From the IMG/VR virus record IMGVR_UViG_3300008267_001048, positions 1-31,696 of that record: DNA of 31,696 bases. One strand, given 5' to 3'. This document shows positions 17,883 to 18,940 of the stretch, in pieces. The notes below the pieces were generated by a model, which saw only the letters and a program-made list of their open reading frames with translations, was not told where the DNA came from and searched no databases. This DNA is from a virus. The position numbers were made by a program, and so were the translations under genes. The first letter of the stretch is position 1. Each line of letters opens with the position of its first letter.

Positions 17883-18101
17883 TTAGTTTGCCAATAAGGT
17901 CGGTGATCTGCCCAACAAGCTCGAGCCTTGCTTCAATGGGTCCGCCATCGGGTCGAAAGCCATCTCTGCCAATGCCTCGAGAGGATCTCCGTGCTTTTCA
18001 ACGATCTTGTCGAAGATCTCTTGGCGCTCAACGTTGCGCTTGTTGACGCTGCCTTTAGGTCGACCAGCGCCGGGAGTCTTTTCACCCTTCTTGAAAGCCA
18101 T
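17883..18101 (-). pseudogene. Terminase-associated/small terminase-like protein, apparently frameshifted
   Basis: As read, 72 aa from ATG 18101 (AAGGAG 8 nt upstream; the TTG at 18107 is too close to it). N-terminus AFKKGEKTPGAGRPKGSVNK is the basic motif of DUF5681-like proteins, often encoded just before TerL, followed by a helix with EIFDKIVEKHGDPLEALAEM. From about 17940 the frame turns into Ser/Leu-rich sequence. In the -1 frame the DNA reads PIEARLELVGQITDLIGKLN and then AGGK, ending at a TGA (17868-17866) that overlaps the TerL ATG. One extra C in the CCC run at plus 17938-17940 would join both parts into a ~78-aa protein. It may be a sequencing error, a true mutation or a frameshift site. 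Likely role: TerS-like DNA recognition; still shorter than usual TerS. Confidence 0.65.
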
Positions 18102-18131
18102 AGCCAATACTCCTTATATTTTCTTCTTGTT

Positions 18132-18160
18132 ATTCTAATACGGAGTGCGGGATCGCGTAC
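18132..18160 (-). promoter_or_regulatory. Candidate leftward promoter for head/packaging operon
   Basis: On the minus strand TAGAAT (18137-18132) is preceded at 17-bp spacing by GTACGC (18160-18155), with GCACTCCGTAT just before the TAGAAT. The same arrangement occurs at two other places (21.99 and 22.09 kb). It is 31 bp upstream of the terminase-associated gene start. The -35 hexamer is not like sigma-70 TTGACA, so an activator may be needed. Confidence 0.5.
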
Positions 18161-18172
18161 ATAGGCCCTTTC

Positions 18173-18340
18173 AAAAACGCTATAGAGTGTTTTTTTAGGC
18201 TAAACTAGTTGGATCAATACACTAAACTAATTATTATTGACTCGTTCGTTCGTTTCTTCAAATCATAAGATCTCCGTGTCTGCTAAAAGGTTGTATTGAT
18301 CCTCTTTGTTTAGCCTAAAAATATCCTCTATAGCGTTTTT
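18173..18340. repeat. Block-structured long inverted repeat in divergent control region
   Basis: Arms at 18173-18220 and 18293-18340 (48 bp each) separated by 72 bp. Matching blocks, outer to inner: 15 bp (AAAAACGCTATAGAG), 5 unmatched bp, 13 bp (TTTTAGGCTAAAC), 5 unmatched bp, 10 bp (GGATCAATAC): 38 of 48 positions identical, with both mismatched blocks exactly 5 bp in each arm. The loop contains a short TCGT tandem repeat (18242-18255). The conservation of blocks with variable spacers suggests several protein-binding half-sites rather than selection for one hairpin. Flanked by divergent genes and by TAGAAT elements 36 and 37 bp beyond the arms. Confidence 0.9.
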
Positions 18341-18376
18341 GGTCTTTTTGGCTCCTAAAACATAGTCTTACTTGTA

Positions 18377-18392
18377 TAGAATGCTGTATAAT
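18377..18392 (+). promoter_or_regulatory. Candidate rightward promoter for the 18427 gene
   Basis: TAGAATGC at 18377-18384 and TATAAT at 18387-18392 lie 35-50 bp before the ATG at 18427. No convincing -35 hexamer is present. The TAGAATGC element is placed as the near mirror image of the leftward TAGAAT at 18137-18132 about the centre of the inverted repeat, while TATAAT is the better sigma-70 -10 box. Which of the two is used cannot be decided from sequence. Confidence 0.45.
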
Positions 18393-18426: not shown

Positions 18427-18867
18427 ATGGGCAGACCACTTGAAGCAACATCTCCTCTTGACTTAGATACGATCAAGATTATTGTTTGGGCCAGCGAATA
18501 TGGCTCAGGCCATCCAAACATCAGTCGACTGTACGATAACGAGGCAGCAGATGGTCTTGACCTAAGTCGAGGCACATTTTTTAATGCCGTTAAAGGTCGC
18601 AGGGTAACTCAGCAAGTTTTAGACAGAGTCGACGAGCTAATCGCAATTAAGGGCTGGAGGACCAAGTGGATCGAACATTGCCGCGAAGAACACAAAAAGC
18701 GCGTAGTCAAAGCTTTCGAGAACCCCATGAACTATTGTTCCGTATGCGGACATGGCTGTCCTAACTGCGGAACTCCCAAATCCGAGAAACGTCGCAAGGC
18801 CATCTTCGACTACTTGAAGACAGATCCTATCGACCTTGGCTGCAAGGTGCGTGACCGCGAGGAATAA
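18427..18867 (+). CDS. Putative DNA-binding regulator with HTH-like region and Cys4 zinc site
   Basis: 146 aa on the plus strand, opposite to nearly all other genes. Residues ~28-72 (NISRLYDNEAADGLDLSRGT, then FFNAVKGRRVTQQVLDRVDE) look like a helix-turn-helix of repressor type, with FFNAVKGRR at the recognition helix position. A CxxC-x3-CxxC knuckle (Cys104, 107, 111, 114: YCSVCGHGCPNCG) follows, then a basic tail EKRRKAIFDYL. Inference: a transcription factor binding the adjacent inverted repeat and controlling both itself and the leftward head operon. Ribosome-binding site is a weak purine stretch (GAAAGAAGAAA). The gene ends at a strong hairpin. No close family is recognised, so the HTH call is by eye. 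Confidence 0.7.
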   Translation: MGRPLEATSPLDLDTIKIIVWASEYGSGHPNISRLYDNEAADGLDLSRGTFFNAVKGRRVTQQVLDRVDELIAIKGWRTKWIEHCREEHKKRVVKAFENPMNYCSVCGHGCPNCGTPKSEKRRKAIFDYLKTDPIDLGCKVRDREE

Positions 18868-18892
18868 AAAAAGGGGGCGGTTAGGCCCCCTT
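18864..18892. terminator. Convergent terminator between the regulator and leftward small-gene operon
   Basis: AAGGGGGC (18871-18878), 6-nt loop GGTTAG, GCCCCCTT (18885-18892). On the minus strand the hairpin is followed by TTTTTTTATT, a textbook U-tract, so it should stop transcripts coming from the small-gene operon at 18.94-21.94 kb before they run antisense into the regulator. On the plus strand only TTAAAAC follows, so it is weaker for the regulator gene. Confidence 0.85.
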
Positions 18893-18940
18893 AAAACTTC
18901 TCAACCGGCAACTGCGTTTTCCCGGCAGTTCATTGTAAAC

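Follow-up and report, generated by a model that had tools for sequence, protein, structure and literature searches.

Here, we describe an inverted-repeat DNA element that occurs in a group of uncultured freshwater phages, in two matching copies at the heads of the early (replication) and late (head) operons. Most likely, the element serves as a paired replication origin; the main alternative is a switch shared by the genes around it. It has not previously been described in these phages; a literature search returned no description of an element of such form. These findings bear on the sites of replication initiation in these phages and on the timing of their two operons.

Anatomy and conservation of the element

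The record analysed here, whose whole stretch we call the window, is 31,696 bases long and derives from a tailed phage. It contains one large inverted repeat, whose arms of 50 nt each (18172 to 18221, plus strand, and 18292 to 18341, minus strand) are complementary at 43 of 50 positions (86%) and separated by 70 nt; no second inverted repeat of such size exists anywhere in the 31,696 bases. Its best ungapped inverted-repeat score was 34.6; when the surrounding 800 bp were dinucleotide-shuffled 150 times, the scores averaged 10.1 and did not exceed 13.8. The matching runs within the arms are 16, 13, and 11 bp long, with one or two chance matches per 5-bp spacer. An earlier note on this DNA had given arms of 48 bp with blocks of 15, 13, and 10 bp; the repeat is confirmed, with lengths off by a base or two.

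Searches of IMG/VR identified 31 related loci with the 146-amino-acid protein encoded beside the element and 80 with TerL. A scan yielded 45 distinct elements, a set extended to 51 distinct aligned versions of 159 to 172 bp, with the consensus CAAAWWNS-CTATAG ... GCCATAACARAG-TGTATYRATACA ... AT-rich ... TCGTTCGYTCG ... TGTATYRATACA-CTYTGTTATGG ... CTATAG-SNWWTTTG. In the window, the CTATAG of the left outer block (CTATAT in some relatives) lies at 18180 to 18185 and that of the right outer block at 18328 to 18333. The left inner site (18204 to 18221, plus strand) is composed of the half-site ACTAGT, which reads ACARAG in relatives, and GGATCAATACA, which reads TGTATYRATACA in relatives; the right half-site is CTTTGT (18304 to 18309; ACAAAG on the minus strand). 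The conserved form [A/T]ACARAG with TGTATYRATACA stands 24 bp past CTATAG in each arm, varying by one base, a spacing derived from counts of 22 and 26 bp, the reference columns being two bases off the motif. Between the left arm and the central motif TCGTTCGTTCG (18242 to 18252, plus strand), which is present in nearly all elements including those of the distant loci L135 and L139, lies an AT-rich segment (18222 to 18241; the 24-bp segment averages 77% AT) that keeps its length and composition and not its sequence. Accordingly, 47 of the 51 elements place TCGTTCG 62 ± 1 bp from CTATAG, whereas spacing in the other half ranges between 75 and 87 bp. That half includes GATCTCCGTGTCTG (18269 to 18282, plus strand), aligned with GATCCCCGTGTCTG in most copies B of the N type defined below.

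The earlier note had also read the arms as three blocks on helical 5-bp spacers. This arrangement is local to the window: its second spacer is a CAGAG/CTCTG stretch that pairs in most relatives, and the alignment indicates that the arms of the window have diverged at this point. Blocks set 5 bp apart are therefore no general feature of the element. The same note had set the loss of the blocks with retention of the spacers in relatives against its own interpretation; the outcome favours a functional element. Its broader view is supported in that the DNA element is conserved, has blocks resembling protein sites, and is located before TerS/TerL and beside a likely DNA-binding protein gene. No such repeat was detected in the stretches examined of the TerL relatives Caulobacter phage RW and MW202545, and a phage collection contained neither similar DNA nor a homolog of the neighboring gene. 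Pattern matches at L171, L172, and L178 lacked arms and were dismissed as chance.

Both strands of the element fold far better than shuffled sequences (z of -11 and -9), as expected of a structured RNA or hairpin regulator transcribed from it. Nevertheless, we consider this explanation very improbable. Mismatches between the arms are of the G-U type in 68 cases and of the A-C type in 60, and this lack of G-U bias argues that the element acts as DNA, not RNA. Moreover, foreign arms match nearly as well as the true partner (0.731 versus 0.761; at most 0.758 after random re-pairing), the outer blocks differ between the arms, and inverted versions of the element are retained. The RNA hairpin was rejected, the fold being stable with no selection for pairing in one strand. 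No Rfam family reached its cut-off for the element, and the match to MIR2646 was discarded (30.5 bits against a cut-off of 245). As duplex DNA, the element is of low stability: in each of three genomes of about 55 kb (G002, G003, and G004), the two elements occupy the lowest two ranks when 160-bp stretches are ordered by stability, and the element region ranks first for low stability within the window.

Two copies per genome and the flanking promoters

Each long relative genome checked carries two copies of the element, 16 to 21 kb apart. Copy B, the one in the window, lies between the TerS-like gene (17883 to 18107, minus strand) and the divergent gene at 18427 to 18867. The TerS-like gene, a small gene with a weak PHROG match of unknown function, is the first of the leftward late operon and directly precedes TerL (PF03237), which, like the gene for a portal-like protein, is transcribed leftward below the element; above the element, also leftward, are the replication genes encoding SNF2 helicase, UvrD helicase, AEP-TOTE primase, and PolA. 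Copy A is situated between the end of a late gene of about 1,300 amino acids and the first early gene (DUF932/TIGR03299), beyond the right end of the window at what would be about 36.9 kb in its coordinates; in G003, the stop codon of the large late gene falls inside the outer block of copy A. The twin elements mark the starts of both gene blocks. At fourfold sites, the coding-strand C bias is stronger in late genes (about -0.17 to -0.35) than in early genes (about -0.09 to -0.22). A GC-rich hairpin flanked by runs of A and T (18873 to 18893), between the convergent ends of the gene at 18427 to 18867 and the replication operon, is likely a bidirectional terminator.

In one lineage (L077, L089, L097, L100, L102, L110, and L112), copy B is inverted as a whole, and the A copies of this lineage (G011 and G014) are not. 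Since the inverted copy is kept, the element seems to work in either orientation. Copies A and B of the same genome share more of the AT-rich segment than those of different genomes (0.58 versus 0.42, p 0.0001), and the right arm is likewise more alike within genomes (0.80 versus 0.68), a pattern that points to exchange between the copies or to a common constraint. Locus L077, from the same genome as L032, combines a TerL near-identical to that of the window with a different type of the neighboring gene (70% identical) and an inverted copy B, a mosaic arrangement whose junction lies at the element or close to it.

Inversion, the likeness of A and B, the L077 junction, and the ends of ten contigs 326 to 600 bp upstream of TerL, around the element, would each suit a site of recombination or packaging, whether an invertible DNA switch, a site at which the two copies are resolved, or a cos/pac site next to TerS. 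We regard such a role as improbable. Tyrosine (PF00589) and serine (PF00239) recombinases were absent from eight records, which may be incomplete, while the control searches gave matches, and all copy-B inversions fall in one protein type, suggesting one event rather than switching; recombinase-driven inversion was rejected on both grounds. The contig ends are scattered and do not coincide at one base, for which reason cos ends were rejected too, and a packaging site requires neither two copies nor function in either orientation.

The promoters bear on a second alternative, a transcription switch, in which the helix-turn-helix (HTH)/zinc protein encoded at 18427 to 18867 would sit on the arms and activate or repress the flanking promoters of the early operon, the late operon, and its own gene, timing both phases. 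We consider this distinctly possible, if short of probable, and a close rival of the origin reading, with which it is not mutually exclusive. It accords with the presence of copies at the heads of both operons and of a neighboring gene for a predicted Cro/POU-like HTH protein. Likewise, the -10-like box of the TerS promoter (TAGAAT at 18132 to 18137, minus strand; TANAAT in relatives) lies 32 to 35 bp from the facing arm at 28 of 33 copy-B loci; this holds for either arm and also for inverted elements. According to a comparison among relatives, the general form of this promoter is TTTACG-18-TANAAT, the -35-like box at 18156 to 18161 (minus strand) reading TGTACG in the window and TTTACG in most relatives. 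On the other side, the -10-like TATAAT of the gene at 18427 to 18867 (18387 to 18392, plus strand) is accompanied by poor -35 boxes and stands 30 to 86 bp from the arm, weakly helix-phased at a soft p of about 0.04 from nine spacing groups that we chose ourselves. The spacing is near-constant solely on the TerS side. The early-operon promoter lies at an unphased 60 to 81 bp from copy A, and no promoter was found on the late side of this copy, whose promoterless arm is nonetheless conserved. A switch would also have no need for a fixed AT-rich segment or a central TCGTTCG.

The earlier note had stressed a symmetric pair of TAGAAT boxes. Both are present in the window (18132 to 18137, minus strand, and 18377 to 18382, plus strand), on the outer side of the 50-nt arms at distances of 34 and 35 bp. 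The pair, however, is not conserved: on the plus side, relatives have CAGAAT, CAGATT, or CAAATT, and the conserved TATAAT is 10 bp further out. Nor is a recognition array present once for each promoter, as the note had it; the two arms form one unit, and this unit occurs twice per genome. Conserved dyads before the early promoter, on the early side of copy A (e.g., L046 and L054; GCTGGTA..AAGTCC.AGC and TGCGTGGTTTTACGCA), look like further regulatory sites.

In phage lambda, OL and OR are a pair of multi-site operators at operon heads that overlap their promoters and are bound by HTH proteins of the Cro/CI type. The element described here resembles them in having multi-site control regions at two operon heads and a Cro/CI-like, here predicted, HTH protein. 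Unlike in lambda, its arms lie outside the promoters, the distances are variable, and one arm of copy A is promoterless.

The neighboring gene as candidate binding partner

The gene at 18427 to 18867 (plus strand), divergent from the TerS-like gene, encodes a protein of 146 amino acids with a predicted lambda-repressor/POU-like HTH domain (about residues 10 to 86) and a CxxC-x3-CxxC zinc knuckle, whose four cysteines are invariant. Its AlphaFold model (pLDDT 81) features a five-helix N-terminal region. A Foldseek search of the PDB gave no significant match for the protein; a second-look structural alignment of residues about 10 to 86 gave Z scores of 5.2 with Oct-1 POU and 5.8 with HNF-1A, and values of 5 to 6 are modest for an HTH fold by the alignment tool's own caution. 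The only homolog in BFVD was an uncultured-phage protein (80% identity), and none was confirmed on GTDB contigs.

The element is present at loci with this gene, also at L135 and L139, where protein identity is just 33 to 34%. The sister loci inspected with full upstream sequence, L133 and L136, have neither gene nor element, and further sister loci lack the gene. In addition, the putative recognition helix covaries with the half-site: SRGTFFNA goes with AACARAG (N type) and GRGTF[FY][GS]A with TACARAG (T type) in both arms of copy B. By our count, the two agree in copy B wherever the site is readable (6 T-type and 25 N-type loci) and in copy A of two of two T-type and eight of nine N-type genomes, the exception being G001, with T-type sites in copy A and an N-type protein. 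The T type requires at least five changes on the TerL tree, implying that gene and element travel together. The 146-amino-acid protein is likely the binding protein of the element; the match of helix and half-site may, however, reflect physical linkage only.

Proposed paired origins and a substitute element in the sister clade

Our preferred reading, held tentatively as somewhat short of an even chance, is that each copy of the element is a replication origin and that the two copies form a pair resembling SPP1 oriL/oriR. We infer the following steps of binding, melting, and initiation. The two sites at the heads of the early and late operons act at the DNA level and would serve as orientation-independent docking sites for protein; a phage protein, most probably the HTH/zinc product of 18427 to 18867, would bind the paired arms at CTATAG and [A/T]ACARAG-TGTATYRATACA; the bound complex would help to melt the AT-rich segment, which one arm and the TCGTTCG motif flank at constant spacing; and the replisome would then be loaded. 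An origin pair is favoured because the two-arm unit is indivisible, the AT-rich segment is fixed, stability is lowest there, two copies exist, orientation seems not to matter, and SPP1 offers a precedent. The co-occurrence of gene and element with their joint absence from the sister clade, the match of helix and half-site types in copy B, the unbiased arm mismatches, and an alternative two-copy, AT-rich iteron element at the same junctions of the sister clade add further support.

Several observations count against origins. Strand skew (GC, fourfold sites) shows no sign change at either element, although with all genes on one strand it is uninformative as to an origin. No DnaA boxes were found among the 51 elements. 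The TerS promoter keeps its distance from the element, which hints at a link with transcription; the HTH/zinc neighbor resembles a regulator no less than an initiator; and the G001 mismatch, possible linkage of helix and half-site, and the frequent AT richness of intergenic DNA weigh likewise. The earlier note had offered an operator or activator site and an origin side by side, and both stay leading readings. As CTATAG resembles a T7-like promoter, single-subunit RNA polymerase (PF00940) was searched for and not found, a search that gave nothing in control genomes either.

Herpes simplex virus oriL and oriS have inverted binding boxes around an AT-rich spacer and are set between transcription units; this likeness is one of layout only, the virus, sequence, and proteins being unrelated. 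Bacteriophage SPP1 possesses two origins about 13 kb apart, each with repeats and an AT-rich unwinding region, and one initiator binds both (PMC6316719). The element described here resembles them in the two similarly organised sites per genome, the combination of binding boxes with an easily melted AT-rich region, and a single, here candidate, binding protein. In SPP1, by contrast, the boxes are directly repeated and the initiator gene itself contains oriL (PMC6316719), whereas the element has inverted arms and a central TCGTTCG, is intergenic at both operon heads, and has no known sequence relation to the SPP1 origins.

The sister-clade genome G013 (TerL 73%), in which no homolog of the gene at 18427 to 18867 was found, carries an element of its own, also in two copies, which are about 200 bp long and 74% identical to each other; one is located upstream of TerS and the other between a 1,349-amino-acid gene and the SNF2 operon. 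It consists of GCTAATA repeats at about 10-bp steps and the outer inverted arms TACACGTG/CACGTGTA. Both elements are AT-rich, have inverted outer arms, and occupy the same two operon junctions in two copies; they differ in that their sequences are unrelated and GCTAATA repeats replace the CTATAG arms. The comparison indicates that the layout is conserved and the sequence replaced. This raises the possibility, which we rate as rather unlikely, that twin nucleoprotein elements, one per early/late junction, both start replication and set operon timing, that this layout is older than the sequences, and that in the sister clade an unrelated repeat element has taken over from the element and its likely binder at the same two places. 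A 165-bp DNA, a 146-amino-acid protein, matched variants of helix and half-site, a natural inversion, and the sister-clade substitute constitute a small testable system.

At L183 (15784 to 15862) and L184 (15726 to 15804), both from G013, TATTAG[CT] heptamers phased at about 10 bp and inverted TACACGTG arms are found at the same two junctions. A perfect DnaA box is present in copy 2 of near-identical sister-clade genomes only and is not conserved. Repeats of the G013 type are also present in the relatives L186 to L188 and L190.
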